Positions 3,360 to 22,021 of a stretch of DNA of 28,784 bases are shown piece by piece (position 1 is the first letter of the stretch; every line of letters begins with the position of its first letter). Source of the stretch: a virus; IMG/VR virus record IMGVR_UViG_3300025327_000125, positions 1 to 28,784 of that record; one strand, 5' to 3'. The notes beneath the pieces are model-generated. The model was not told the DNA's origin. It saw only the letters and a program-made list of their open reading frames with translations, and made no database searches. The translations under genes were made by a program, and so were the position numbers.

Positions 3360-4066
3360 TGATGCCTGCGGTCCCGGGCGGCGGCCCGGAAGTCCGAGAC
3401 CGCCTGAGGCCCGGCCTGCTGCCCATCTTCGAGGCTATCGACGCCTCAATGCGGGTGGCGCCCGAGCCGCCCAGCCTGCCCGATCTGGACGGGGGAGAGC
3501 CCCGTTGGGCCGAGCTGGTGCGGGTCCGGGAGGCGCTGGCGGCGGTGATCCGCACGGCCACCGAGATGCGCCGGTTGGCCGACCGGGAGTTGGCCGCCGA
3601 GCTGGGGCCCGGCGGAGCGGCGCGTTACGGCGAGTTCGTATATCGCCCCCAGCCCCGTCGCAGCCTGCGGGCGGTGGACGAGCGGGCCTGGTGGGCGTTC
3701 CTGGTCGAGTTGCTGGGGGTGGTGCGCGCTCGTCGGGAGCGCACCGCGGGGCTGCTGTCCCGGCTGTATCGGGCGGCCGACGTGCGGCTGACGCCCCTGG
3801 CCGAGGTGGCGGAGCTGGCGGGCCAGCAGGAGCAAACGGTGCGGGATACCTTTTTCTACTGGGAAGAAGGGCCGCTCGAGGCGACGCCGGTGCCGCTGGA
3901 CCGGGCCCCGAAATACCTGCAGAAATTGGCCGAGGGCGAGGCGCTGATCCGGCGCCTGGCCTGGCCGTCAAGCGTCGAGGGGGTCGGCCCCCGGGAAGCC
4001 GTCGGGGAAGTCGGCGACTCGGATGGTCCGCGCAGCGCAGCGGACTCCGACCCCCCCGGCGGCTAG
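3356..4066 (+). CDS. Hypothetical protein of the recombination block, 236 aa
   Basis: I do not recognise the family. The protein starts at GTG/ATG/ATG 3356-3364, overlapping the Rad52-like stop. It has a helical middle (residues about 55-90, REALAAVIRTATEMRRLADRELAAELG), then GEFVYRPQPRRSLRAVDERAWWAFLVELLG, a possible small folded domain, then LAGQQEQTVRDTFFYWEEGP and DRAPKYLQKLAEGE. Proteins with a similar layout (a cofactor- or product-sensing FVYRP strand followed by a DTF motif) occur near recombination genes of actinophages, but no activity can be assigned. The Pro/Ser/Asp-rich C-terminus looks disordered. Its TAG stop forms the first half of the next promoter box. Confidence 0.75.
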   Translation: MMMPAVPGGGPEVRDRLRPGLLPIFEAIDASMRVAPEPPSLPDLDGGEPRWAELVRVREALAAVIRTATEMRRLADRELAAELGPGGAARYGEFVYRPQPRRSLRAVDERAWWAFLVELLGVVRARRERTAGLLSRLYRAADVRLTPLAEVAELAGQQEQTVRDTFFYWEEGPLEATPVPLDRAPKYLQKLAEGEALIRRLAWPSSVEGVGPREAVGEVGDSDGPRSAADSDPPGG

Positions 4067-4650: not shown

Positions 4651-5099
4651 CCGTGGACGACCTGCCGTTCTCGAAGGCTCGCCAGATCGAGCGCTCCACC
4701 TCGGCCAGCCGTTGCCCGCGCACCGGCGAAGCCCTGCGCGCCTGCCGGTGCCCCAGCTGTACCGGACGCCGCAGCCGGGCCAAGGGCAAGGCCGCCCAGC
4801 GCACCGCTCGCAAGGCCGCCGGGGTACCGGTCGCCAGGTGGGCCGGGCGGATGGCGAATGAGGAGACCTGGCCGGGCCCGTTCCGGGCCGAAGTGAAGTC
4901 CGGCGCCCAGGTGCGGCCGGCCTGGACCGCCTACCTGCGGGCCGAGGCCCAGGCGGAGGCGGCCAAGGCCGAGGGGGACCCGCGGCCATTCGTGGCGGTG
5001 CTGATGCCGGAGGGCTACGGGACGGAGGGGTTGGTGCTGCTGCGCCTGTCCGCCTGGCGCGCGCTGGACCTGGGACGATTGCCCGATGCGAATAGTTGA
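4647..5099 (+). CDS. Putative PD-(D/E)XK-type nuclease or resolvase, 150 aa
   Basis: The N-terminus carries a Cys-rich zinc-like segment (CPRTGEALRACRCPSC). A basic region follows, then residues about 70-150 read EETWPGPFRAEVKSGAQVRPAWTAYLRAEAQAEAAK, GDPRPFVAVLMPEGYGTEGLVLLRL. The E...EVK spacing and the following helix with conserved-looking E, Q and E fit the compact PD-(D/E)XK nuclease core of phage resolvase-like proteins; the nuclease assignment is an inference from this motif. The GTG start overlaps the previous stop and the 3' end overlaps the ParB-like gene by 14 bases. It lies in the same gene string as the Rad52-like annealing protein, so a role in recombination or branch resolution is plausible. 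Confidence 0.5.
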   Translation: MTVDDLPFSKARQIERSTSASRCPRTGEALRACRCPSCTGRRSRAKGKAAQRTARKAAGVPVARWAGRMANEETWPGPFRAEVKSGAQVRPAWTAYLRAEAQAEAAKAEGDPRPFVAVLMPEGYGTEGLVLLRLSAWRALDLGRLPDANS

Positions 5100-5643
5100 A
5101 CCGGCTTACGAGCGGGTGCCGATAGAACGGTTGGCGCCCCACCCTCGGAACCCGCGCCGGGGCGACGTGGCGGCCATCGCCGCATCTCTGAAGGCGCATG
5201 GGCAGTACCGGCCGTTGGTCGTGCAGCGGTCCACCGGCTACGTGCTGGCCGGCAACCACACGCTGGCCGCCCTCCGGTCCCTGGGCGCGGCCGAGGCCGA
5301 GGTCGGGTGGGTGGACGTGGACGACGACCAGGCCCTGCGCATCATGCTAGCGGACAACCGGACCGCCGATCTGGCGACCTACGATCAGGACACCCTGGTG
5401 GACCTACTGCGGGAGCTCGACGTGCTCGATGGGCAGAAGGGTACGGGCTACGAAGCGTGGGACCTCGCCGCTCTCGTTACCGCGGCAGAATGGATCGACC
5501 GGGTCGAGCCGAATCAGCCCGCCGATCAATCCCGTCTGGACATCAACCTCGGCACCACTCGCATCATCTGCCCCGCCTGTGGGCATTCCTTTGCCTGGAA
5601 CGAGAGGGGGAAGATTGCCCCGATTCCACCTGCGACCGATTGA
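5086..5643 (+). CDS. ParB-like nuclease-domain protein with C-terminal half zinc finger
   Basis: Residues 1-100 match the ParB/Srx N-terminal domain: VPIERLAPHPRNPRRGDVAAIAASLKAHGQYRPLVVQ, then GYVLAGNHTLAALRSLG and ALRIMLADNRTADLATYD. The G-N-H-x-x-x-A-A-L motif is the phosphoryl-transfer or CTP-binding region of the fold. No helix-turn-helix DNA-binding domain of partition ParB follows; instead the protein ends in IICPACGHSFAWNERGK, a single CxxCGH zinc motif. There is no ParA gene nearby, so plasmid-type partition is unlikely. Phage ParB-like proteins of this kind are often adjacent to DNA-modification enzymes, and the next gene is Mom-like and begins inside this one. A helper in DNA modification or a small nuclease is the likely role. 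Confidence 0.8.
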   Translation: MRIVEPAYERVPIERLAPHPRNPRRGDVAAIAASLKAHGQYRPLVVQRSTGYVLAGNHTLAALRSLGAAEAEVGWVDVDDDQALRIMLADNRTADLATYDQDTLVDLLRELDVLDGQKGTGYEAWDLAALVTAAEWIDRVEPNQPADQSRLDINLGTTRIICPACGHSFAWNERGKIAPIPPATD

Positions 5644-6721
5644 CGGTCGCACCGCCCGCCTGGCCGTGGTCCGCTGGCACTATTCGGGAACGATCCCGGT
5701 GGGCAAGATGGTCAAGTTCGGGCTCTGGGAGGAGGAGCGGTTCATCGGCGCCGTGGTCTTCTCGACCGGCACCCTCGGGGTTCGCCTGGTCGGTCGGTGG
5801 TTCGAGGTTCTACCGGACCACACCGCCGAACTGAGCCGCGTCGCCCTCGGGCATCACACCGTCCCGGTGTCCCAGATCGTGCCCGAGGCCCTCAGGCTCC
5901 TACGGGTGATCAACCCGAGCCTGCGGTTGATCATCTCTTATGCCGATCCTTCCCAGGGTCATATCGGGCGAATCTATCAGGCAATGAATTGGGCTTACTT
6001 GGGCCGCTCGGCGATCAATAACTTCTATTTTGACCCGGCCCGGGCCCGTTGGATTCACAATCGGCTCTACCACGGCGATATCCAGCCACGGCCCGGCACG
6101 CACAAGGGGGCTTGGGTCCGCAACCGGACGCTGTCCGGTTTTGGGCTCCCGATCGAGTCCCGACGGAACCAGCTTCCCGTGAAACCGGATCGGGCGAAGT
6201 TCCGCTATGCCTGGGCCTGGGACAAGCCACTGATGAGGCGCCTCCGCCGGGCTGCCTTGCCGTATCCTGGACCCGCCGAACTTGCGGAGGAGGTCTCGAA
6301 GGTGAGACGCCGGGCTACCCGCCCGGAGGGCCGGGTCCGATCCCCGGGCTCCGCTCTGATCGAACACGACGCGCTGACCCTGGCGATTCGCGCCGTGCTC
6401 ACTCCGGACCTCTTGCGGCCCGAACATCACCAAGTGGCTGGGAAGCCCCCGACGTTCGGGCACTCTTACGTGGCGGCCGAGGCCTATTACCACCTGGCCG
6501 GTGGCGCGGAATTAGGGTTGACCGTCTACCACGTCCGGCACGAGGGGACCGTCCATTGGTGGTTGCAGCTAGACGGGGTGATCATCGACCCGACCGGAGA
6601 CCAGTTCACGACGCGGGTGCCCTACGAGGCCGGCGGCCGGGCCCACTTTCTGCCGCCCTCACCTTCGGCGCGGGCCAGGACACTGATGGCTCGGATAGCG
6701 GCGGGGTCGGAATCGGTGTGA
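5615..6721 (+). CDS. Mom-like DNA-modification protein with extra C-terminal domain
   Basis: Residues about 10-160 resemble the Mom family (GNAT-like adenine modification enzyme of phage Mu): VVRWHYSGTIPVGKMVKFGL, a FIGAVVFSTGT strand, ELSRVALGHH and SYADPSQGHIGRIYQAMNW (D at residue 111). Mom adds a carbamoylmethyl group to adenine and blocks restriction; the exact modification here is unknown. From residue about 278 a separate domain begins: PTFGHSYVAAEAYYHLAGG, HWWLQLDGVIIDPTGDQF, a cysteine-free version of a small domain often seen alone in phages. TTG 5615 is chosen because AGGGGG at 5604-5609 is 5 bases away and the fold starts there; it lies inside the ParB-like gene, implying coupled translation. 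Base composition is a little less GC-rich than the neighbours, hinting at separate acquisition. Confidence 0.75.
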   Translation: MPRFHLRPIDGRTARLAVVRWHYSGTIPVGKMVKFGLWEEERFIGAVVFSTGTLGVRLVGRWFEVLPDHTAELSRVALGHHTVPVSQIVPEALRLLRVINPSLRLIISYADPSQGHIGRIYQAMNWAYLGRSAINNFYFDPARARWIHNRLYHGDIQPRPGTHKGAWVRNRTLSGFGLPIESRRNQLPVKPDRAKFRYAWAWDKPLMRRLRRAALPYPGPAELAEEVSKVRRRATRPEGRVRSPGSALIEHDALTLAIRAVLTPDLLRPEHHQVAGKPPTFGHSYVAAEAYYHLAGGAELGLTVYHVRHEGTVHWWLQLDGVIIDPTGDQFTTRVPYEAGGRAHFLPPSPSARARTLMARIAAGSESV

Positions 6722-9120: not shown

Positions 9121-10314
9121 GTGGTCGTCCTCTACATCGTCGGCGACGCCCTCGCCGAAATAGCAAAGCTGCCCGCGACGTCGGTCGATTTGGTGCTCAC
9201 CTCGCCTCCCTTCCTAGCACTCCGCTCCTATCTTCCTGCCGATCACCCCGACAAGGCGCTCGAGGGCGGATCGCAGGGCACGCCGGGGGAGTACATCGAC
9301 TGGCTGATCGATGTCGTGGAGGCGTGCGACCGGGTGCTAGCCCCGCATGGATCGTTGGTGTTCGAGTTGGGTGATACCTATTCGGGGAGTGGCGGGGCTG
9401 GGGGGGATTATGACAAGGACGGATGGCGAGATGGACAGCCGACATGGGCCGGGTCCGCTAATCGCGTCGGGTTCAATTCTGACCCGAACGGGTTTACCGG
9501 GCGCCGCGGTCATGGCGCAGGTGGTGGTGTCGGCTGGCCCCTGTCCAAATCCCTCTCCCTCATCCCTGAACTGTTCCGCTTCTCCCTGGTGTACGGCTTC
9601 AACCCGCTCACCGGGCGGCAGACCGAACGCTGGCGACTCCGCAACGTCATCCGCTGGGTGCGCCCGAATCCGCCGGTAGGTGCGTTGGGCGACAAGTTCC
9701 GCCCGGCCACCTCGGAGTTGATGGTGTTTTGCAAATCGGCCAAGAGGTACTTCGACCTGGATGCAACCCGTGAAACGGCGAGTCTTAACACGCACGAACG
9801 CTCGGCTGCTGACCGCTACGCGAACCCCGCTGGCTCTCCCCCCCTCGACTGGTGGGAGATTCCCCCCGGCGGGTATTCGGGCGCCCACTATGCCGTTTGG
9901 CCGCCCGAGCTTCTGATTAAGCCGATCAAGGCGATGTGCCCCGAGCGGGTGTGCCGGAAATGTGGAACGCCTTCGAGGCGGATCGTGGACATTTCCTACA
10001 CGCCCCATGGTGGCCCACATCAACACGCCGAGCCTAAGGCCAGCGCCGATTATGCCTTGCAGCAACGCGACGAGAATCCTCAAGCGATGACGTGGGGCCG
10101 CGCCACCAAGAACGTGGAAACCCTCGGCTGGACCGACTGCGGCCATGGTGAGGACCACTGGCGTCCCGGCCTGGTTCTCGATCCCTTCGTCGGCTCCGGC
10201 ACCACCCTCATGGTTGCCCACGGACATGGTCGGGATAGCATCGGAATCGACCTGGATGAGCGGAATGTCGAACTGGCGCGGGGGCGGCTAGGGATGTTCC
10301 TGGAGGGGCCGTGA
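9121..10314 (+). CDS. DNA methyltransferase (amino-methylating, permuted motif order)
   Basis: The catalytic motif TSPPF (motif IV, residues about 29-33) comes first and the AdoMet-binding motif DPFVGSGTT (motif I, about 358-366) last, followed by GIDLDERNVELARGRL. This order is that of beta-type N4-cytosine or N6-adenine methyltransferases. Between them lie a long variable region (about 75-230) likely to read the target, and CRKCG with a later CGHGEDH that may bind zinc. The site methylated cannot be read from sequence. There is no restriction gene beside it, so it is a solitary methylase, probably giving protection from host restriction or acting with the Mom-like protein. GTG start without a Shine-Dalgarno sequence; local base composition is less GC-rich than the capsid genes. 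Confidence 0.85.
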   Translation: MVVLYIVGDALAEIAKLPATSVDLVLTSPPFLALRSYLPADHPDKALEGGSQGTPGEYIDWLIDVVEACDRVLAPHGSLVFELGDTYSGSGGAGGDYDKDGWRDGQPTWAGSANRVGFNSDPNGFTGRRGHGAGGGVGWPLSKSLSLIPELFRFSLVYGFNPLTGRQTERWRLRNVIRWVRPNPPVGALGDKFRPATSELMVFCKSAKRYFDLDATRETASLNTHERSAADRYANPAGSPPLDWWEIPPGGYSGAHYAVWPPELLIKPIKAMCPERVCRKCGTPSRRIVDISYTPHGGPHQHAEPKASADYALQQRDENPQAMTWGRATKNVETLGWTDCGHGEDHWRPGLVLDPFVGSGTTLMVAHGHGRDSIGIDLDERNVELARGRLGMFLEGP

Positions 10315-12345: not shown

Positions 12346-13356
12346 GTGCGGGTCCTGGCCTACGTGCACAAGTACCCGCCGGCCCACAACGCCGGCGCTG
12401 AGTTCACCCTGCACCACCTGCTGCGCCACCTGCAGGGGTTGGGGCATGAGGTGCGGGTCCTGAGCCGGGACCAGACCGGGGCCGACGGCTACCAGGGCGT
12501 GCCGGTGCGTTCGCGCGTGAACACCCGGGCCGTGCATGAGGCGTTCTCCTGGTGCACGGTGGCCGTGACCCACCTGGACGTCACCCGGTTTGCCGTGCAG
12601 CTAGCCCTGCGCCACCGCAAGCCGCTGGTGCACTTGACCCACAATCACCGCCAGTTGGCCTACCACCGGGTGACCCCGGTGCTGGGCCGGGCGGCCGCCC
12701 TGGTGGTGCACAACAGCCGTTGGCTGGCCGAGATGATCGCCTGGCCGGGCGCCTGGTGCGTGCTGCACCCGCCGGTGCCCCCCGAGGCCTACCGGGCCGA
12801 GGGGCCGCACGACCGGGTGCTGTTTTCCAACCTGACCGCGGCCAAGGGGGCGCCGCTGGTCTACGCCCTGGCCGCCGCCCTGCCCCGGGTGCCCTTCCTG
12901 TTGGTGCGGGGGGCCTACGGCTACCAGCTGGAGCCTCCCGAGCTTCCCAACGTCGAGGTCGTGGCCCACCGCCCCGACTTCGCCGCCCACCTGGCCCGGG
13001 CCTCGGTCGTGCTGATGCCGTCCGCGTACGAGTCCTGGGGGCGGGTGGCGGTGGAGGCCGGATGCGCCGGGGTGCCGGCGGTGCTGTCCACCGCCCCGGG
13101 TCTGGTCGAGTCGATGGGACCGGCGTCGGTGGTGGTGCCGGTGGTGTCAACCCCGGACGGCTCGGTGGTGGCCGGGCGCGAGGTGGAGGGGGTGTCGGGC
13201 GGCCCCGAATCGGTGGCGGCCTGGTCCAGGGCGCTGGTGTCGATGCTGGCGGATCGGGAGCGGGCCGGGGCCCGGGCGCGGCGTCGGGCCGAGGAGCTGT
13301 GGGGCGTGACCCAGGGCCAGCTGGTGGAGGTGGAGGCGCGGATGGCGGCGCTGTGA
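12346..13356 (+). CDS. GT-B fold glycosyltransferase (GT4-like)
   Basis: The N-terminal domain begins MRVLAYVHKYPPAHNAGAEF, the usual GT4 opening with the glycine-rich acceptor loop, then HHLLRHLQGLGHEVRVLSRD. The C-terminal domain contains VLFSNLTAAKGAPLVYALA (donor phosphate region) and ASVVLMPSAYESWGRVAVEAGCAGVPAVLSTAPGLVE with the E-x7-E motif (ESWGRVAVE) that binds the nucleotide-sugar. At 336 residues it is near normal length. The enzyme would transfer a sugar from an activated donor; the acceptor is unknown. Its place between the capsid and surface-protein genes suggests virion glycosylation, as known for some mycobacteriophages, rather than host wall synthesis. It overlaps the WhiB gene by four bases. 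Confidence 0.8.
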   Translation: MRVLAYVHKYPPAHNAGAEFTLHHLLRHLQGLGHEVRVLSRDQTGADGYQGVPVRSRVNTRAVHEAFSWCTVAVTHLDVTRFAVQLALRHRKPLVHLTHNHRQLAYHRVTPVLGRAAALVVHNSRWLAEMIAWPGAWCVLHPPVPPEAYRAEGPHDRVLFSNLTAAKGAPLVYALAAALPRVPFLLVRGAYGYQLEPPELPNVEVVAHRPDFAAHLARASVVLMPSAYESWGRVAVEAGCAGVPAVLSTAPGLVESMGPASVVVPVVSTPDGSVVAGREVEGVSGGPESVAAWSRALVSMLADRERAGARARRRAEELWGVTQGQLVEVEARMAAL

Positions 13357-13616
13357 GCCCCGAGTCGGAGGCGCTGCTGGAGGTGCTGGAGGAGGAGGAG
13401 TTCGGCTGGCGGTCCCGGGCCGCCTGCCGGGACAAGCCGCGGGACTGGTTCATAGCCCCGCCCCGGGGAGGCTACCGGGAGGGCCAGGCCGTGTGCCGGG
13501 GCTGCGAGGTGCGGACCGAGTGCCTGGGGTTCGCGCTGGAACGCCGGATCACCTGCGGGCTGTACGGGGGTCTGTCGCCGCGGGACCGGGAGCGGCTGGC
13601 GCGGGTGGCCTGCTGA
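13353..13616 (+). CDS. WhiB-family iron-sulfur transcription regulator
   Basis: The 87-residue protein has the WhiB signature: WRSRAACRD (C25), then AVCRGCEVRTECLGFAL (C48, C51, C57, spacing C-x2-C-x5-C) and the GLYGGLS turn (residues 69-75), close to the canonical G-[IVL]-W-G-G. The four cysteines would hold a 4Fe-4S cluster; WhiB proteins bind the primary sigma factor and redirect transcription. They are confined to actinobacteria and their phages, so this fixes the host group. GTG 13353 overlaps the glycosyltransferase stop. A probable target is host or phage promoter choice during infection. Confidence 0.9.
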   Translation: MSPESEALLEVLEEEEFGWRSRAACRDKPRDWFIAPPRGGYREGQAVCRGCEVRTECLGFALERRITCGLYGGLSPRDRERLARVAC

Positions 13617-13630
13617 GCCAAACCTTTTTT
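13604..13630 (+). terminator. Possible rho-independent terminator after WhiB
   Basis: GGTGGC (13604-13609) can pair with GCCA and CC (13617-13624, with an AA bulge), followed by TTTTTT (13625-13630). The T-run is exceptional in such GC-rich DNA and lies just before a new promoter. The stem overlaps the last codons of the WhiB gene. Confidence 0.4.
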
Positions 13631-13641
13631 AGAACTACGGC

Positions 13642-13670
13642 TTGACACCCGGCCCGGTCTGTGGTATCGT
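13642..13670 (+). promoter_or_regulatory. Sigma-70-type promoter TTGACA-N17-TATCGT
   Basis: TTGACA (13642-13647), a 17-base spacer ending GTGG, TATCGT (13665-13670). It is nearly a copy of the promoter at 8062, including CGGCCC in the spacer and the downstream 14-base leader element. Confidence 0.75.
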
Positions 13671-13678
13671 GTCGTGCA

Positions 13679-13692
13679 TGGGAACGACGAAC
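13679..13692 (+). repeat. 14-base leader element, copy 2
   Basis: TGGGAACGACGAAC, identical to 8098-8111. ATG 13678 with this sequence encodes Met-Gly-Thr-Thr-Asn in frame with the gene at 13717, 7 bases after the -10 box. Confidence 0.65.
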
Positions 13693-13716
13693 CACCACCG
13701 ATCCGAGGAGGTCACA

Positions 13717-13860
13717 ATGATCGCCGCCATCTTGACCGATTCACGATACACCCTTGCAACGGACCGACGCTCCGTGGGGGCGATGTCTCGCCAATCGTTG
13801 TCGGTGATCGAGCTTGGCACCAGAGCTTGGCTCGCACTCCACTACGGCAGGGGTGACTGA
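13717..13860 (+). CDS. Very small protein, 47 aa
   Basis: ATG 13717 has GAGGAGG at 13705-13711, and a promoter at 13642. The product (MIAAILTDSRYTLATDRRSV, then LSVIELGTRAWLALHYGRGD) has no recognisable domain. A leaderless start at ATG 13678 would add 13 residues beginning MGTTNHH. It is the first gene of a three-gene set of tiny proteins ending at 14164, each overlapping the next by one to four bases. The strong promoter suggests an abundant peptide. Confidence 0.6.
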   Translation: MIAAILTDSRYTLATDRRSVGAMSRQSLSVIELGTRAWLALHYGRGD

Positions 13861-13976
13861 TGGATGGAATCTGCAAGTGCGGCCACGCCTACGACGACCA
13901 CGACTGCTACTTCGGCGGTGAGGGTGGCGGGTTCTGTTTGATGCCCCGCTGTCCCTGCCAAGCGTTCGACGGATGA
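13860..13976 (+). CDS. Cys/His-rich mini-protein, 38 aa
   Basis: ATG 13860 shares a base with the preceding TGA. The 38 residues contain MDGICKCGHAYDDHDCYF and FCLMPRCPCQAF: six cysteines and two histidines in C-x-C-G-H, C, and C-x4-C-x-C spacing. This is dense enough to expect one zinc ion, or two, holding a tiny fold. A nearly identical layout (CxCGHxxxDH) is seen in short actinophage proteins of unknown role and in the small protein at 10311. Too short for most gene finders. Confidence 0.6.
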   Translation: MDGICKCGHAYDDHDCYFGGEGGGFCLMPRCPCQAFDG

Positions 13977-14164
13977 CGCTCGAGTTCGGCGTCCACGTCA
14001 ACGTCCAGCGGGTGAGCGGCAAGTTCGTCTCCCGCGACGACATCGCCGACGCCATCCTCGAGGCGCTGGACCAGGCCATCTCGGACTTGGACCTCGCAGG
14101 CCTGGGGGTCGACGGTGATAGCGAGTACGAGGTGGTGGAGTCCAATGTGGAGCCGGGGTCGTGA
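13973..14164 (+). CDS. Small acidic protein, 63 aa
   Basis: ATG 13973 overlaps the previous stop by four bases. The product starts with a beta strand (LEFGVHVNVQRV), has a helix SRDDIADAILEALDQAISDLDLAGL and ends EYEVVESNVEPGS. Strongly acidic; no family recognised. It is the last gene of the unit driven from 13642. Confidence 0.65.
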   Translation: MTLEFGVHVNVQRVSGKFVSRDDIADAILEALDQAISDLDLAGLGVDGDSEYEVVESNVEPGS

Positions 14165-14209
14165 CCCTGGAGCCGTGTGAGCGCCGCCCTGCGGCCCGCT
14201 GCGGCCCGG

Positions 14210-14215
14210 TAGCCT
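14210..14215 (+). promoter_or_regulatory. -10 box TAGCCT, leaderless start 9 bases downstream
   Basis: TAGCCT, 9 bases, GTG 14225. The 60-base gap before it holds no ribosome site near the start. Confidence 0.4.
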
Positions 14216-14224
14216 TCCACCCCG

Positions 14225-15166
14225 GTGTATGACGCCCACGCCTCCCGGGTCCAGTACGTGGACCACCTGGCGCCCGTGTGGCGGGCTCTGCCGGGCCGGG
14301 CCTTCACCGTCGCCGACTCTGCCCTGGTTCGACGGGCGTCGGCGCGCGGCGTCACCGCGCGGGTGGGCGCGCCGGCGGGCGACCTGCCGGTGCTGGTGGC
14401 CTCGCACCGGGACGAGCTGTTGGTGCCGGGGCCGATTCTTTTCCTCGAGCACGGGGCGGGCCAGCACTACGGCGGGGTCGATGCCAGCGGGGAGGGCGTC
14501 GGCCGGCCCCGGGTGGTGCTGTACCTGGCGCCGAACCCCGCGGTGGCCGCCCGCACCGGCGCGGTCATGCCCAACGCCTGCACGGCGGCGGTGGGCTGCC
14601 CCAAGCTGGACCGCTGGCTGGGCTGGGTGCCCAGCGGCCGGCCCGAGCCGGTGGTGGGCCTGGCCTGGCACTGGCCCAGCCGCAGCTGGCCGGAGGCCAT
14701 GTGGGCCTATCCCCACTACCGCGGCGTCCTCGCCCCCCTGGCGCGCCGGTATCGGGTGCTGGGGCACGGGCATCCCCGGGTCTTCGGGCATCTCATCTCG
14801 GATTACCGGCGGGCGGGGATCGAGGCGGTGGCGGACCCCGAGCAGCTGCTCACCAACATCGACCTGCTGGTGGCCGACAACACCTCGGTGCTGTTCGAGG
14901 CGGCCGCCGTCGGGCTTCCGGTGGTGGTGCTGGACGCCCCGTGGTACCGGCGGGGGGTCGAGCACGGGCTGCGGTTCTGGACCTGGGCGGACGTGGGGCC
15001 CCGCATAGGCCGGGCCGCCGACCTGGCGGGGGCGGTGGAACGGGCGTGGGCCGAGCGGGAGGCCTACCGGCCGGTCCGCGAGGCGATGCGGGCGGAGGTG
15101 TACGGGGCCTGGGACGGGCGGGCGGCCCAGCGGGCGGCCCAGGCCATCTCCGAGGCGATAGGCTGA
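14225..15166 (+). CDS. GT-B fold glycosyl/glycerophosphotransferase-like protein
   Basis: The C-terminal half has the TagB/TagF (CDP-glycerol glycerophosphotransferase) look: NIDLLVADNTSVLFEAAAVGLPVVVLDAPWYRRG, where D-N-T-S and the following helix bind the donor diphosphate. The N-terminal half has FLEHGAGQHYGG, a motif typical of this family, and NACTAAVGCPKLDRW. At 313 residues it is shorter than wall teichoic acid polymerases and lacks membrane segments. It would transfer a sugar or polyol phosphate to an acceptor. With the GT4-like enzyme at 12346 it makes a pair flanking the WhiB set and next to the surface-protein genes, consistent with decoration of virion proteins. Confidence 0.65.
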   Translation: MYDAHASRVQYVDHLAPVWRALPGRAFTVADSALVRRASARGVTARVGAPAGDLPVLVASHRDELLVPGPILFLEHGAGQHYGGVDASGEGVGRPRVVLYLAPNPAVAARTGAVMPNACTAAVGCPKLDRWLGWVPSGRPEPVVGLAWHWPSRSWPEAMWAYPHYRGVLAPLARRYRVLGHGHPRVFGHLISDYRRAGIEAVADPEQLLTNIDLLVADNTSVLFEAAAVGLPVVVLDAPWYRRGVEHGLRFWTWADVGPRIGRAADLAGAVERAWAEREAYRPVREAMRAEVYGAWDGRAAQRAAQAISEAIG

Positions 15167-15293: not shown

Positions 15294-15302
15294 CGGTTGT
15301 CG

Positions 15303-16184
15303 ATGGCTCGCCTTCGTGCTTTGGTCCGCCCCCCGTTGCCCGAGTCGCTGCGCGGCAACCTGGTCTCGGCCGTGGGTACCGTCGAGGTGCCGACCGAACG
15401 GTGGCGGGGCCAGGGCATCACCTACCGGCCCCACCGCTACGTCGCCGGCGCCGCCTACGCCGTGGACCCCGATTGCGGCCCCCACACCACCCCGACCGTC
15501 GCCCCGCCGGCCCTGGTGGAGTGGGACGACGTGGTGCTGACCTGGGAGGAGACCTGCGCGGCCTTCACGCCGGCTGACCTGGCCGACCTGCGCGAGCGGG
15601 TGCGGCAGGATTTCGAGGCGCAGTTCAGCCACAAGCTGGAGGGGGTGCTGTGGACCAACAAGGTGGGCGGGGTTGACCTGGCGACCAGCCACCCCAACGT
15701 CGGCCTCGCCTCCACCGGGGTATCAACCCTGGTCTTCGGGGACCCGGTGGGGGTGATGACGGCCTGGCGTGGCTTGCTGCGCCGTATGTCGACGTGCCTG
15801 GGTGGGGCCCGGGGCGTGATTCACGTTCCCCAGTGGTCCACCGGCTATCTGGACTATTACGGGTTGATCATCAAGGAGGGAACCCGGCTGGTGGGCACCA
15901 GCTCGGACCACATCGTGGTGGCCGGCACCGGCTACACCGGCTCGGGGCCGGGCGACGTGGCCCCGGCGGCCGGCAACGCCTGGTTCTACGCCACCAGCAT
16001 GGTGGAGGTGCGGCGCGGCGCGGTGGAGGTGCCGGCGCTGGACCCCGAGAACGTCGACCGGGTCGACAACTCCGTGGCCGTCTACGGAACGGCCCCCGCC
16101 CTGGCATCCTGGGACCGGGCTTGCCACCTGGCCGTCGAGGTCTGCTTGGAGGACCCGGGCCCGCTCTGCGCCGAAGGGTCCTGA
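15303..16184 (+). CDS. Virion structural protein (putative), 293 aa
   Basis: ATG 15303 gives MARLRALVRPPLPESLRGNL. The middle is a mixed fold (WEETCAAFTPADLADLRERVRQDFEAQFSHKLEGVLW), then GVSTLVFGDPVGVMTAWRGLLRRM, GGARGVIHVPQWSTGYLDYYGLI, GTRLVGTSSDHIVVAGTGYTG and WFYATSMVEVRRGAVEVPALDPENVDRVDNSVAVYG. Proteins with this pattern sit in actinophage head or neck operons and are annotated as structural, with no fixed function. The short distance to the next structural gene and absence of enzymatic motifs support a virion role. I cannot say whether it belongs to head or tail. Confidence 0.6.
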   Translation: MARLRALVRPPLPESLRGNLVSAVGTVEVPTERWRGQGITYRPHRYVAGAAYAVDPDCGPHTTPTVAPPALVEWDDVVLTWEETCAAFTPADLADLRERVRQDFEAQFSHKLEGVLWTNKVGGVDLATSHPNVGLASTGVSTLVFGDPVGVMTAWRGLLRRMSTCLGGARGVIHVPQWSTGYLDYYGLIIKEGTRLVGTSSDHIVVAGTGYTGSGPGDVAPAAGNAWFYATSMVEVRRGAVEVPALDPENVDRVDNSVAVYGTAPALASWDRACHLAVEVCLEDPGPLCAEGS

Positions 16185-17216: not shown

Positions 17217-18161
17217 ATGGCTCGCCGCACGACCCAAGAACTCGCCGAGGTAGCGCTTCAGTCGGCCCTGCGCCGCACCACGCAAGAACTTGCCGAAGTG
17301 GCGCTTCAATCGACCCTGCGCCGCACCACCCAGGAACTCAGCGAGGTCGCGCTTCAATCGACGCTGCGCCGGACCACTCAGATTCTCTCCGAGGTGGCGA
17401 TCCTGGTCGCCTCCCTGCCCCTTTCGGAGACCTTCACCGGCACCAACGGGGCAGCGTGGAATAACGACAACTGGGTCACCTCCGCAGCGAGCGGCGGCGG
17501 ATCGGTCACCATCCAGACCAACCGGGGTCGGGAATCCGGTACTGCCGGGGTCGCCAACTCGGGGGGTCGGGCAGTATCCCGTAAAGGCGGTCGGGTCAAC
17601 CAGGAGGTAACCGGCGACCTCCAATTGTGCGACACCACCGAGCCCTGTCGAATCGACCTCTGGCTCCGGGCTTCCGGGGATTGGACCGGGCTGGACACTC
17701 CCACCGACGGTTACGGAGTGCGGTTGCCCGCCGACTCCTCGACCGCCCAACTGATCAAATCGGTGGCAGGTGTCGAGACGGTCCTGGCCTCAGCCACCTG
17801 GCCACGCGATCTGGTCTTGAAGTCGTGGCGGTTCCAGACCTTGGGTGTGAATATCCGGTTTCGCATCTGGAACCAAGCCGACGCCGAACCAACCACCTGG
17901 CTATTCGACGTCCAGGATTCCAGCACCGGGGGGGTGGGCGTGTTCCAAGTCGCCTACGTCTGCCCGACCGCGCCCACTGGTGGAACCTGTGCCGATTATG
18001 ACAACATCGGCGGGAACGACCTTTACGCTGCTCTCGGTTCCGCCTCACCACGAGGAACGGCCTCGGGCACCGTTGTTGTGCCATCTGTGCCTCCGCCCTC
18101 GGGTGGGACCGGCGAGTCCCGGCCCGCTCGGGCCGTCCGCCGACGGCGGCGCCGGGGCTGA
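17217..18161 (+). CDS. Fibre-like protein with N-terminal 16-residue repeats and lectin-like domain
   Basis: Residues 3-66 are four tandem copies of a 16-residue unit, RRTTQELAEVALQSAL and variants; Leu/Val/Ala at regular positions make each unit amphipathic, suited to a coiled-coil or helical bundle stalk. From about 70 a jelly-roll-like domain begins: LSETFTGTNGAAWNNDNWVTS, RIDLWLRASGDWTGLDTPTDGYGVRL, LKSWRFQTLGVNIRFRIWNQA, TTWLFDVQDS. The C-terminus is Pro/Gly-rich and ends in a run of arginines. The layout, stalk then receptor-binding-like head, fits a trimeric tail or head fibre. The gene starts at ATG 17217 ten bases after the previous stop. Confidence 0.65.
   Translation: MARRTTQELAEVALQSALRRTTQELAEVALQSTLRRTTQELSEVALQSTLRRTTQILSEVAILVASLPLSETFTGTNGAAWNNDNWVTSAASGGGSVTIQTNRGRESGTAGVANSGGRAVSRKGGRVNQEVTGDLQLCDTTEPCRIDLWLRASGDWTGLDTPTDGYGVRLPADSSTAQLIKSVAGVETVLASATWPRDLVLKSWRFQTLGVNIRFRIWNQADAEPTTWLFDVQDSSTGGVGVFQVAYVCPTAPTGGTCADYDNIGGNDLYAALGSASPRGTASGTVVVPSVPPPSGGTGESRPARAVRRRRRRG
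17223..17408 (+). repeat. 48-bp tandem repeat (3 full copies plus a partial fourth)
   Basis: Copies at 17223-17270, 17271-17318 and 17319-17366, and a diverging fourth from 17367 to about 17408. The copies differ mainly at third codon positions, so protein sequence is what is kept; the array is in frame. Confidence 0.8.
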
Positions 18162-18199: not shown

Positions 18200-18826
18200 G
18201 TGAGCGACTTCTCTGACTTTCTCGAGCTCGAGATTCTTGACCACATCCTCGGCACCACCGACTATCCGTTGCCGGTGCCCTTCTGGTCCCTCCACAACGG
18301 CCACCCGGCGGAGACCGGGGCCAACGAGCTGACCGGGGGTTCCTATGCCCGCCAAGCGATAGCCTTCGGGGCTGCCGCCGCCGGTGCTGCCGCCAATACC
18401 GCGGTCGAGGAGTGGGACCTCACCGGGGTCACCGGGTCGACCATCTTCTTCCTCGGGGAATGGGATGCCGTCAGCGGGGGCAACTTCATGTGGGCCGTAC
18501 CCCTTGGTGGCACCCCGGCCACCTTTGTCGCCACCAACGCCGGCGACGTCTTCACTTCTTACGCCCACGGGTACTCGAACGACGACCGCGTCTATCTCAA
18601 GCGGGCTTCGGGTTCGGCCCTCCCGGCCGGACCATCCGAAGACACGCTCTACTTCGTGATCTCGGTGACGGCCGATACCTTCCAAATCTCCACAACCCAA
18701 GGTGGCGGCGCCGTGGTCCTTACCACCGATGGGGAGGGGATCGCGGTCCGGGTCGTCGGCAAGGCGTTTAACCCCGGCGACCTGTTCCGGGTGGGAATTG
18801 GCGACCTCGACGTAGCGATCGACTGA
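18200..18826 (+). CDS. Phage tail-fibre family protein, 208 aa
   Basis: It opens with the signature of a small tail-fibre protein family: SDFSDFLELEILDHILGTT, VPFWSLHNGHPAETGANELTGGSYARQAIAFG, NTAVEEWDLTGVTGSTIFFLGEWDA, GGNFMWAVPL. A second domain of about 75 residues is inserted near the end: DRVYLKRASGSALPAGPSED, TLYFVISVTADTFQISTTQGG. This segment is common in phage fibres as a beta-rich module. In other phages such proteins are near receptor-binding genes. The gene ends with TGATG overlap with the next gene, so the two are co-translated. Confidence 0.75.
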   Translation: MSDFSDFLELEILDHILGTTDYPLPVPFWSLHNGHPAETGANELTGGSYARQAIAFGAAAAGAAANTAVEEWDLTGVTGSTIFFLGEWDAVSGGNFMWAVPLGGTPATFVATNAGDVFTSYAHGYSNDDRVYLKRASGSALPAGPSEDTLYFVISVTADTFQISTTQGGGAVVLTTDGEGIAVRVVGKAFNPGDLFRVGIGDLDVAID

Positions 18827-19302
18827 TGGCCCGCGGCATCTATACCGTCACGTTCTCGCAGGTGTCCTTCACCACAGCAGGGACTACCTGGGATTTCTTC
18901 GAGTTTGATGCCGCAGCCGACAAGCCCATCGAGCTTATGAGCGTGTTCATCGGCAACAAGACCGAGGTCGGTGACGCAGCGGAGGAGATGGTTGCTTACG
19001 CCATCATCCGTGGGCACACGACGACCGGTAGCGGCGGTGCGGCCGTAACGCCGAGACCGCTCGATCCCTCCGATGGTGCTGCGTCCTTTGCTGCCGAGGC
19101 CGCCAATGACACGATCGCCTCGGCAGGTACTGCACTGTTCCTCCACGAAGATACCTTCAACGTCCGAACTGGGCTTCAACTGATTCTGCCTCCGGACATG
19201 CGGTCCATCACCCGCGGTGCCGACCTGTTGGTCGTGAGGATGCTGTCCACGTTGACAGATGATGTGACTTTCTCTGGAACCGCTTACGTTCGAGAGTTGT
19301 AG
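18826..19302 (+). CDS. Virion-associated beta-rich protein, 158 aa
   Basis: ATG 18826 overlaps the previous stop by one base. The product is rich in strands: IYTVTFSQVSFTTAGTTWDF, KPIELMSVFIGNKTEVG, MVAYAIIRGHTTTGSGG, LQLILPPDMRSITRGADLLV, VTFSGTAYVREL. Similar proteins (a strand, FELxAPADKPIEL-like segment, and a closing SGTxYVREL) are regularly found beside tail-fibre genes and are taken as minor virion components. There is no signal peptide or enzyme motif. Confidence 0.6.
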   Translation: MARGIYTVTFSQVSFTTAGTTWDFFEFDAAADKPIELMSVFIGNKTEVGDAAEEMVAYAIIRGHTTTGSGGAAVTPRPLDPSDGAASFAAEAANDTIASAGTALFLHEDTFNVRTGLQLILPPDMRSITRGADLLVVRMLSTLTDDVTFSGTAYVREL

Positions 19303-19314
19303 GCGGGGTGGCCG

Positions 19315-20028
19315 ATGGCCTCCCCGGTGGTCGTCAGTCGCAGCACACCTTCGGCGGTAACCACCGCCGGAACCAGCCATACCGTCAACCTCCCCGGCTC
19401 GCTGGTAGCAGGGAACCGGCTCGAGATTCTCTTTGCGGTCATGGCCCCGACCGCCACCCCATCGGCGACCAACTGGACCCACGACACCGCCTTCGTCACC
19501 ACCGTCGGAACTGCTCAGGCGGTCCATCGCCTGTTCAAGATATCGAACGGGGCGGAGGGTGCCACGGTCACGGTCACCACTACCGCCAGTACCAAGAGCG
19601 CCCACACCGCCTATCAGATATCGGGGGGTGGTGAGGGGTACGGAGGCACCGGAGCGACCGGCACCTCCGGACCCAACACGGCCAATCCGCCCTCGGTGTC
19701 AGTGGTGGGCGGTCCGAAAGATGTGTTGTCGATCGCGGTGATGGCGATCGAGGGGGAAGTATTCACCGGGACCGGGGCGCCTGCCTCCTACACGAACCTA
19801 CTGACGGCCAACACCGGGACCGGCGGGGCGGTGACCGTCAACGGGATGATTCAGACCGCCGAGCGGGCCGAAACCGCGGTCTCGACGGTTGATCCGGCTG
19901 TGTTCTCGCACACCGCCAACGATGACTGGGTGGCCCAAACGCTGGTTATCCCCCAACAAGAGAGCATTGCTTTTCCTCGCAATGATCGAAAGACCGTCCC
20001 AATGAGGGTGCCCGAGGTGTCCTGGTGA
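19315..20028 (+). CDS. Virion-associated beta-sandwich protein, 237 aa
   Basis: ATG 19315 starts MASPVVVSRSTPSAVTTAGT. The sequence alternates Thr/Val strands and Gly-rich turns: HTVNLPGSLVAGNRLEILFAV, WTHDTAFVTTVGTAQAVHRLFKI, GATVTVTTTASTKSAHTAYQI, DVLSIAVMAIEGEVF. The segment SLVAGNRLEILFAV and the later KSAHTAYQI are typical of a phage surface-protein family of unknown function, found among fibre genes. It overlaps the repeat protein gene by four bases (GTGA), suggesting they act in the same structure. Confidence 0.6.
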   Translation: MASPVVVSRSTPSAVTTAGTSHTVNLPGSLVAGNRLEILFAVMAPTATPSATNWTHDTAFVTTVGTAQAVHRLFKISNGAEGATVTVTTTASTKSAHTAYQISGGGEGYGGTGATGTSGPNTANPPSVSVVGGPKDVLSIAVMAIEGEVFTGTGAPASYTNLLTANTGTGGAVTVNGMIQTAERAETAVSTVDPAVFSHTANDDWVAQTLVIPQQESIAFPRNDRKTVPMRVPEVSW

Positions 20029-20957
20029 GTTGGCAGGGCTATCGCCCGCCCATCCCCCGGAAACGGTGGATCGGCACGGCCTTCGTCCAGCCGGTCGTCA
20101 CCGGCGACGCTCTTGGCTTTGCTTCGCCGCAGGGGATCGCCGCCGGTGCCGTCGTGCGTTTGGCGTCGGCCCTGGGAACCGGGTCGCCGCAGGGGCTGGC
20201 GACCGGCGCCGTCATTCGGCTGGGTTCGGGTCTCGGCGCGGCCTCGCCGCAGGGGATCGCCACCGGCACAGTCGTCCATACGAGCATCGTCCTCGGTTCG
20301 GCTTCCCCCTCCGGCGTCGGGGCTGCCATCGTTGTCCATTCGGCAACGGCCTCGGGTACGGCCTCGCCACAGGGAGTATCGGGGGGCGGCTTCATCCTCA
20401 CCGCCTCGGCCCTCGGCTCGGCTTCGGCGAGCGGAGCGGCGAGCGGCGTCCGGGTCCTGGTTGCGGTCGCTCTCGGCACGGCCTCCCCCCAAGCAATCGG
20501 TTCGGCCGTGGTCGTCCTGGTCAGTTCGGCCCTTGGCGGCGCCTCTCCATTCGGGGCTGCCGCAGCCGTGGTCGTCCATACCGGGTCGGCCCTCGGCACC
20601 CTGTCTCCCTTCGCCGCCGGCTCGGGTGTCGTAGTCCACTCTGGCACCGCCGACGGGCGCGCCTCCTTGATCGGGGTCGGTCTTGCCATCGTCGTCCATC
20701 CGGCCTCCGCCGACGGTCGGGCCTCCCCCTTCGGAACGGCGACCGGAGTCATCGTCGGGGTGGTGGTCCATCTCGGCTCGGGTCTCGGCACCGCCTCGGC
20801 CTTCGGGTCGGCCGTCGGGTTGGCCATCCCGGCTGCGCCGCAGCTGCTGCTGCTGACCGTGACGCTGGGCGGGGCGACCCTGAACGCAGACCTCGTCGGG
20901 GCGACCCTGAACGCAGACCTCGTCTCCCCGACCCTGGCGGTTACCCTCCGGCCCTAG
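20025..20957 (+). CDS. Repetitive virion protein built of 20-residue repeats
   Basis: Residues about 22-268 consist of 12 consecutive units with the pattern x-V-V-H-x-x-S-A-L-G-x-A-S-P-x-G-x-A-x-G. Ten are exactly 20 residues, one is 24 (an extra VIVG), and the first is 18. Strand residues (VVV) alternate with a SALG turn and a small-residue SPQG turn, as expected for a beta-solenoid or a stacked-strand fibre. A positively charged N-terminus (YRPPIPRKRW) precedes it and a short C-terminal part has a 9-residue duplication (GATLNADLV twice) and ends VTLRP. It has no cysteine and no enzyme motif. It is the last gene of the surface group before the connector genes; a fibre, stalk or long decoration is likely. 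Confidence 0.7.
   Translation: MSWQGYRPPIPRKRWIGTAFVQPVVTGDALGFASPQGIAAGAVVRLASALGTGSPQGLATGAVIRLGSGLGAASPQGIATGTVVHTSIVLGSASPSGVGAAIVVHSATASGTASPQGVSGGGFILTASALGSASASGAASGVRVLVAVALGTASPQAIGSAVVVLVSSALGGASPFGAAAAVVVHTGSALGTLSPFAAGSGVVVHSGTADGRASLIGVGLAIVVHPASADGRASPFGTATGVIVGVVVHLGSGLGTASAFGSAVGLAIPAAPQLLLLTVTLGGATLNADLVGATLNADLVSPTLAVTLRP
20088..20826 (+). repeat. 60-bp tandem repeat region, 12 units
   Basis: In-frame 60-base units encode the 20-residue repeats of the protein at 20025. Units are diverged at DNA level, with recurring SALG and ASP codon blocks rather than recent identical copies. Confidence 0.75.
20871..20924 (+). repeat. Perfect 27-bp tandem duplication
   Basis: Bases 20871-20897 and 20898-20924 are identical. 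In frame they duplicate nine residues (GATLNADLV). Identity at every base suggests a recent event, unlike the diverged 60-bp units just upstream. Confidence 0.85.
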
Positions 20958-21257
20958 ATGGCCAACACCTACGCCTTCGGCCAGACGGTCATCCCGCGGC
21001 TGCGGTTCAGGGACCGCAACGAAGCGCTGGTGGACGTGACCGGCATCACCGTTGACATCGCCCCCCCGGTGTCCCCCCCCTACACCTACACCACGCCGTT
21101 CGACCACCCCAGCACCGGCATCTACGAGTTTCCCATCGACGGGAATGAGGCGGGCATCTGGCGGGGCGAGGCCTGCGGGGTAGTGGCCGGCGACGGCACG
21201 GCCTGCGACAAGTTCGTGTTCTGCGTCGAGTCCGAGTTCGTGGTGGTGGAGTCCTGA
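20958..21257 (+). CDS. Small Ig-like virion protein, 99 aa
   Basis: ATG 20958 directly follows the previous TAG. The sequence resembles a short Ig-like or BppU-type domain: FGQTVIPRLRFRDRNEALVDVTGITVDI, PFDHPSTGIYEFPIDGNEAGIWRGEA, FVFCVESEFVVVES. Proteins of this size and pattern commonly precede the head-to-tail adaptor in actinophages. Its end overlaps the adaptor gene (TGATG), which supports a head or neck role. Confidence 0.65.
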   Translation: MANTYAFGQTVIPRLRFRDRNEALVDVTGITVDIAPPVSPPYTYTTPFDHPSTGIYEFPIDGNEAGIWRGEACGVVAGDGTACDKFVFCVESEFVVVES

Positions 21258-22021
21258 TGCTCTGCGTCCCCTGGACCACCTACCAGGAGCTGGCGAACTG
21301 CGGGTGCGGGGCGGAGGAGTTGGACGTCGACAGGGTCGAGGAGCTGATAGACGCCGCCTCCGAGGCGCTGCACCTGCTGTCTAACTCCCAGTTCACCGGC
21401 CCCTGCACCACCGTCTACCGGCCCTGCCACTCGGCCTCCTCGTCGGCCTTGGACTGGTGGGGCAGCCCCACCGTGCCGGTGCGCCAGGACGGCGCCTGGC
21501 TGAACCTGGGGCCCTGCGGGTGCGGGGCCTGGGGCCCGGCCGGCTGCACCTGCGGCTGCGCCGCCCTCCACCTGCCGGTCGATTACCCCGTCGGCGTGGT
21601 GGTGCGCGAGGACGGGGTCGTTTTGGCCGCCAGCGCCTATCGGCTGGCCGGCCGGGAGCTGCACCGGGTCACGGGCGCCTGGCGGTGCTGCCAGGACCTG
21701 TCGCTGTCCGACACCGAGGTGGGGACTTGGTCGGTGACTATCACCCACGGCCTGGACCCCCCGGCGCTAGGCCGGCTGGCGGCCCGGGACCTGGCCGCCG
21801 AGCTGGTGAGGGCCTGCCGGGGAGTGGAATGCCGGCTGCCGGCGCGCACCACCGCGGTGGTGCGCCAGGGGATCAGCTATGAGTTGGACCCGGCCGGGCT
21901 GGCGGAGGGGGCGGTGGGAATCTACTCCGTGGACCTATTCCTGGCCGCCGTCAACCCCGAAGGTCGTCGGGCCGGCCGGTCCAGCTTCGCCTCGCCGTCG
22001 CTGCCCGAAACCTGGGGGTAG
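21257..22021 (+). CDS. Head-to-tail adaptor (connector) protein, Cys-rich
   Basis: The N-terminal 60 residues have the adaptor pattern: WTTYQELANCGCGAEELDVDRVEELIDAASEALHLLSNSQFTGPC, a helix followed by the L-S-x-x-Q-F-T-G-x-C turn seen in gp6-type connectors of actinophages. A Cys/Gly-rich insertion follows (LGPCGCGAWGPAGCTCGC). The C-terminus returns to an IYSVDLFLAAVNPEGR strand-helix end typical of the family. It would join the portal ring to the neck. ATG 21257 overlaps the preceding stop by one base. Confidence 0.75.
   Translation: MLCVPWTTYQELANCGCGAEELDVDRVEELIDAASEALHLLSNSQFTGPCTTVYRPCHSASSSALDWWGSPTVPVRQDGAWLNLGPCGCGAWGPAGCTCGCAALHLPVDYPVGVVVREDGVVLAASAYRLAGRELHRVTGAWRCCQDLSLSDTEVGTWSVTITHGLDPPALGRLAARDLAAELVRACRGVECRLPARTTAVVRQGISYELDPAGLAEGAVGIYSVDLFLAAVNPEGRRAGRSSFASPSLPETWG

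Follow-up and report, generated by a model that had tools for sequence, protein, structure and literature searches.

A 20-residue-repeat protein that accompanies Gp80 in divergent phages, the likely strand of a neck fibre built as a chain of beads

Proteins built from arrays of 20-residue units are paired with the fibre protein Gp80 across divergent phages, and this pairing is well supported by our results. The protein encoded at 20025–20957 (+ strand) of the window, by which we mean the whole stretch of 28,784 nucleotides analysed here (IMG/VR record IMGVR_UViG_3300025327_000125, positions 1 to 28,784), is a copy of this widespread Gp80-linked repeat protein and most likely forms the strand along which the beads of a neck fibre are arranged. 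Such an assignment gives a family of repetitive phage proteins, so far without annotation, a predicted and testable role in a known fibre, provides a candidate rope for fibre I of podophage GP4 and a candidate one-gene ruler for fibre length, and would aid the annotation of hundreds of Gp80-bearing phages and prophages.

The repeat gene and its array

The repeat gene encodes 310 residues. Its GTG start overlaps the stop of the upstream gene by 4 bp (GTGA), the ATG at 20958 comes directly after its own stop, and its codon-position G+C (0.72/0.63/0.82) is in line with that of the other + strand genes. Translational coupling and codon-position G+C together rule out an alternative-frame or antisense origin of the ORF. 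Profile searches returned no Pfam, NCBIfam or significant PHROG match for the protein.

Twelve units with the consensus GxASPxGxAxGxVVHxxSAL occupy residues 22–265 (20088–20819, + strand). The spacing between consecutive units is exactly 20 residues in 10 of 11 cases and 24 in the remaining one, which contains an inserted VIVG. Measured against shuffles, the autocorrelation of the array reaches z=15.9 at lag 20, z=13.4 at lag 40 and z=13.1 at lag 60. The original prediction of twelve repeats that fill 250 of the 310 residues, ten of them exactly 20 residues long, is borne out by this parse, in which the array covers a closely similar 244 residues. Among the features by which we define Gp80-linked 20-residue-repeat proteins is a period of 20 over at least six units, which the window protein shows.

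To judge from their DNA, the units have long diverged: their mean identity is 53% (maximum 67%), and identical residues share the same codon at a fraction of 0.44, compared to 0.41 expected. Given this low identity and near-chance codon sharing, the array is old and its period has outlived most of the unit sequence. The 20-residue units show no sign of recent duplication, and TRF run on the window did not pick them up as a DNA array.

The array is followed by a C-terminal segment with 9-residue repeats (20820–20954, + strand), a proposed anchor on the basis of its sequence and of similar tails in relatives; 9–10-residue repeats resembling it end the arrays of the loci L044, L035, L068, L115 and L117. 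Inside this segment TRF identifies a perfect 27-bp (9-codon) tandem duplication (20870–20924, + strand), which encodes the 9-residue repeat ATLNADLVG/ATLNADLVS and is separate from the 20-residue units. This duplication had been described as adjacent to the protein and taken to show that the gene grows or shrinks by tandem duplication. The duplication itself is real, but it is located within the ORF and not beside it, and it does not show the array growing now: it sits in the 9-residue module, and the 20-residue units are old.

Pairing of 20-residue arrays with Gp80

The window gene at 18200–18826 (+ strand) encodes Gp80 (PF23140), known from podophage GP4 as its fibre I protein, with a Pfam match above the curated cut-off (E=1.7e-20) and further matches to the PHROG240 head protein (E=3e-19) and to PDB 8jou_a (E=9e-5). 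The Gp80 domain match falls into two pieces, with about 75 inserted residues between them late in the fold; this insertion is missing from most Gp80 relatives and may be an added surface domain. The repeat gene lies 1.2 kb downstream on the same strand, inside the 5 kb that we used as the limit of proximity.

We measured the pairing in both directions. Starting from the arrays, a degenerate DNA pattern for two tandem units, applied without reference to Gp80, led to 12 further phage contigs whose arrays are genuine. Gp80 is carried by 10 of these 12 contigs, compared to one of 22 control contigs that were fetched by DNA patterns and classed as lacking arrays (Fisher p=5e-6). The sole Gp80-positive control proved to have a 20-residue array too, between its Gp80 and Gp77 genes.

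Starting from Gp80, an alignment search gave 80 loci, 77 of them new, in which we recorded repeat proteins within 5 kb at a threshold of z>6. A lag-20 protein is present in 38 of the 77 loci and a lag-40 protein in 30, while every other lag is found in at most 5; the Gp80 alignment contained array-locus sequences, so these counts are not wholly independent in clade, and the period was not used in choosing the loci. Regions more than 5 kb away from Gp80 contain a lag-20 protein in only one of 58 cases. About half of the Gp80 loci have no array at this threshold, which is partly explained by short contigs. Bacterial genomes present a similar profile: among 35 Gp80 loci from alpha-, beta- and gammaproteobacteria, Nitrospira, Chloroflexota and others, lag 20 appears in 9, lag 40 in 6 and any other lag in at most 2.

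The 279 units pooled from the 12 contigs have the consensus GSASGTGAASGVGASTAAAx, and unconstrained MAFFT places the window motif GxASPxGxAxG on the family motif GxASGxGxAxG. The shared register GxASxxGxAxG is found at rotation 0 as the best rotation, with p=0.005 in a column-permutation test which preserves composition and periodicity. After bias correction, sequence homology can be detected for only one of these arrays, L038 (E=3e-4). Owing to the compositional bias, these comparisons fall short of strict proof of homology between arrays; common descent of all of them nevertheless appears likely from the sequences. A tblastn search of the repeat protein against phages gave no matches even at E=10, an absence which means little, as low-complexity masking is its likely cause.

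Unit composition differs greatly between phage groups and the period stays constant at 20, with indels between units in some arrays. The number of units varies as predicted, from about 6 in the phages PBC5 and Atu_ph08 through 10–11 in BcepIL02 (parsed by hand from the sequence) and 12 in the window to 34 in L047, and BcepMigl lacks several units that are present in BcepIL02.

The same arrangement is found in named phages. In Burkholderia lessieviruses, Gp80 (gp55) is followed by a repeat protein (gp56), by Gp77 (gp57, PF23148) and then by tail fibres. The gp56 protein has z=7.3 at lag 20, belongs to PHROG19041 and is annotated as virion-associated; together with the pairing to Gp80, this annotation upholds the earlier view of the window protein as a fibre-type virion protein. 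In the lessievirus BcepIL02 (gp55-gp56-gp57) this 20-residue-period protein comes directly after Gp80 (PHROG19041, 'virion structural protein'); its units are hydrophobic and contain Arg (GAGAADLVLNVSGNGTRRTF), as opposed to the GxASPxGxAxGxVVHxxSAL of the window, and Gp77 is present there, in contrast to the window.

An array occupies the lessievirus position in Ochrobactrum phage POI1126 (lag 20, z=5.6), and a less pronounced one is present in Sinorhizobium phage PBC5 (z=3.8). Agrobacterium phage Atu_ph08 holds an unannotated array ORF between Gp80 and the next annotated + strand gene; the record annotates a short opposite-strand ORF (3392–3703) over part of this array ORF (L057, 3405–3900). 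Mycobacteriophage Hocus presents a different context, with lag-20 repeats (z=5.2) in its minor tail protein gp32, which precedes the Gp80-like gp33.

In L044, L035, L047, L068 and L089 the gene for the fibre–tail adaptor Gp77 (PF23148) closely follows the array, and Gp77 is missing from 27 of 33 array contigs. Neither the window nor its 50-kb sister contig gave a match to it.

A proposed bead-chain fibre and competing readings

Fibre I of podophage GP4 combines Gp80 beads with the adaptor Gp77. In the GP4 study, five Gp80 dimers are reportedly linked by an elongated rope protein. The deposited entry (PDB 8JOU) contains ten Gp80 chains, a number near the 10–11 units of BcepIL02. A search of the PDB for a rope chain with a sequence found none.

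Based on the pairing with Gp80, the reported GP4 rope and the lack of a rope sequence in the PDB, we propose that the repeat protein forms the strand in a virion fibre of the fibre I type, a bead chain in which Gp80-like subunits are docked along the 20-residue units of this strand, and we regard this as reasonably probable. Several copies of the protein encoded at 18200–18826 would dock along the regularly spaced units, each of which would form one or two beta strands, so that the repeat protein would physically string the Gp80 beads. The bead would then dictate the constant 20-residue period, which would act as a spacing rule, and fibre length would depend in part on how many units there are. 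We infer that the fibre is located on the neck, with the C-terminal segment probably anchoring it there through the product of the following gene and the head-tail adaptor.

A stoichiometry of one unit per Gp80 subunit is speculative: the numbers allow it, and it gains nothing from the search for a 40-residue super-repeat that would mirror Gp80 dimers, which was rejected with a signal in 10 of 42 arrays and a strong one in none. Natural Gp80-array fusions suitable for modelling were looked for and none was found.

The window resembles GP4 in the gene order of the neck region, having a Gp80 family gene in the same cluster, then the array, and then a small gene in the Gp77 slot. Unlike podophage GP4, the window phage is probably a relative of siphophage-type actinophages, its Gp80 has an inserted segment and Gp77 is not detectable. 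A further likeness to the proposed fibre is offered by Anabaena myophage A-1(L), which has five bead-chain-like neck fibres (gp82-gp81-gp80; PMC10966104). The A-1(L) beads link head to tail as trimers via N-terminal hairpins, and no repeat rope protein figures as a separate component in the published model (PMC10966104); the A-1(L) 'gp80' is a gene number only and carries no statement of kinship to PF23140.

It had also been suggested that the window protein may be a long stalk or whisker. As a fibre-type protein this is partly right, but a free-standing form is less likely than a strand which carries Gp80 beads. According to this alternative, the 12 units would stack into a beta-solenoid rod and Gp80 would merely be a neighbouring head or neck protein. 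Beta-solenoids with about 20 residues per coil are common, which speaks for such a rod.

Using AF2 on the window repeat protein together with 17 array fragments, we obtained an all-beta, repetitive model with two strands per unit (mean pLDDT 60.5, pTM 0.60), whose regularity at residues 61–160 (pLDDT 73–84) also favours a solenoid. The repetitive fold expected in the original prediction is therefore seen in the model, with modest confidence and without a significant structural match: Foldseek against PDB and BFVD returned nothing significant, and the best PDB match was the beta-helical antifreeze protein 3p4g (E=0.31). AF2 is, moreover, inclined to build solenoids from any repeat. The model agrees with a repetitive beta protein and fits a self-standing solenoid or a partner-folded strand equally. 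A rod of 12 stacked coils would be only about 6 nm long by our reckoning, and a free-standing stalk leaves the strict coupling to Gp80 unexplained. We hence consider it rather unlikely.

It is more improbable still that the repeat protein is part of the tail or receptor-binding apparatus and not of a neck fibre. This assignment finds support in the Hocus minor tail protein gp32 ahead of its Gp80-like gene, and in L043, where a GTA/gpJ-like tail protein contains the array and is separated from a downstream Gp80 by 32 bp. Against it, the array of the window and of most relatives lies in the stretch from the capsid to the connector genes, ahead of the major tail protein. Least probable of all is a flexible Gly/Ala/Ser-rich linker, whose periodicity would be a structurally meaningless relic of an old tandem duplication and whose link to Gp80 would reflect shared modular cassettes: the biased composition, the loose sequence conservation of the arrays and their occasional indels fit it, but the period holds at 20 across very different compositions and, in the window, through units that have diverged to 53% DNA identity.

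Returning to the strand that carries Gp80 beads, a bolder version would make the entire unnamed class a molecular ruler, in which each unit binds one Gp80 whatever its composition and the number of units sets both bead number and fibre length. We put this forward tentatively, as a possibility that falls well below the strand proposal itself. If true, the GP4 rope would be encoded by the gene that separates Gp80 from Gp77.

Among the 35 bacterial genome loci with Gp80, two contain arrays of 18-residue units (L155, 8455–8934; L175, 9502–11493), and the ruler may have a shorter, 18-residue form.

Source contig and gene neighbourhood

Between 15025 and 25954 the window, a fragment of a virus contig, coincides exactly with part of the 50-kb IMG/VR contig IMGVR_UViG_3300025325_000036, which contains an identical copy of the repeat gene and was the sole match in a viral-contig search with the whole repeat protein. 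At 480–620, within its first gene, the window lacks about 30 bp of the sister contig, split over two short stretches, with a shift of frame that is either a true variant or an assembly error.

The head-tail adaptor (21257–22021, + strand; PHROG783, E=5e-46) shares 37–40% identity with actinophage head-to-tail adaptors. Both the adaptor and the major capsid protein have homologues in Gordonia and Mycobacterium phage loci and in Pseudanabaena phage Pam4, and the window encodes a WhiB protein. The source is likely a siphophage of an actinobacterium.

Several genes accompany the repeat gene. The conserved module gene at 18826–19302 (+ strand) has phmmer homologues in L134, between Gp80 and the array, and in L066, just upstream of the array (E=8e-23 and 2e-20 for the L134/L066 pair). 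The gene at 19315–20028 (+ strand), coupled to the repeat gene through the GTGA overlap, encodes a beta-rich companion, possibly the same domain that, in L032, L033, L039 and L044, is joined to the N-terminal side of the array. This fusion looks likely by eye and is below significance (E about 0.04–0.1), lower E-values being compositional artefacts obtained with bias correction off. The 99-residue protein at 20958–21257 (+ strand) is in the slot held by Gp77 in lessieviruses; Pfam gave no Gp77 match for it, and its AF2 model, with a pLDDT of 40, is uninformative.

Other features lie further upstream. The gene at 17217–18161 opens with four near-identical 16-residue repeats (RRTTQELAEVALQSTL) at 17223–17399, with a DNA period of 48 bp and 81% matches, a recent tandem duplication in what is probably a fibre or structural protein. 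Between the major capsid and fibre genes, the structural cluster is split at 12346–15166 by a glycosyltransferase, the WhiB regulator (13359–13616) and a CDP-glycerol glycerophosphotransferase-like gene.

An N6/N4 methylase is encoded at 9121–10314, and a Mom-family DNA modification protein at 5429–6721 (PF25680, E=1.4e-34), which shows weak YunG-like similarity at its C-terminus, at a score short of the curated cut-off, and overlaps the end of a possible ParB-like gene (5086–5643) that has no Pfam match. Finally, the PHROG779 protein at 15297–16184 has a weak profile link (E=0.002) to the 'major capsid pentamer protein' of MakoManhole, and the window phage may have separate hexamer and pentamer capsid proteins.
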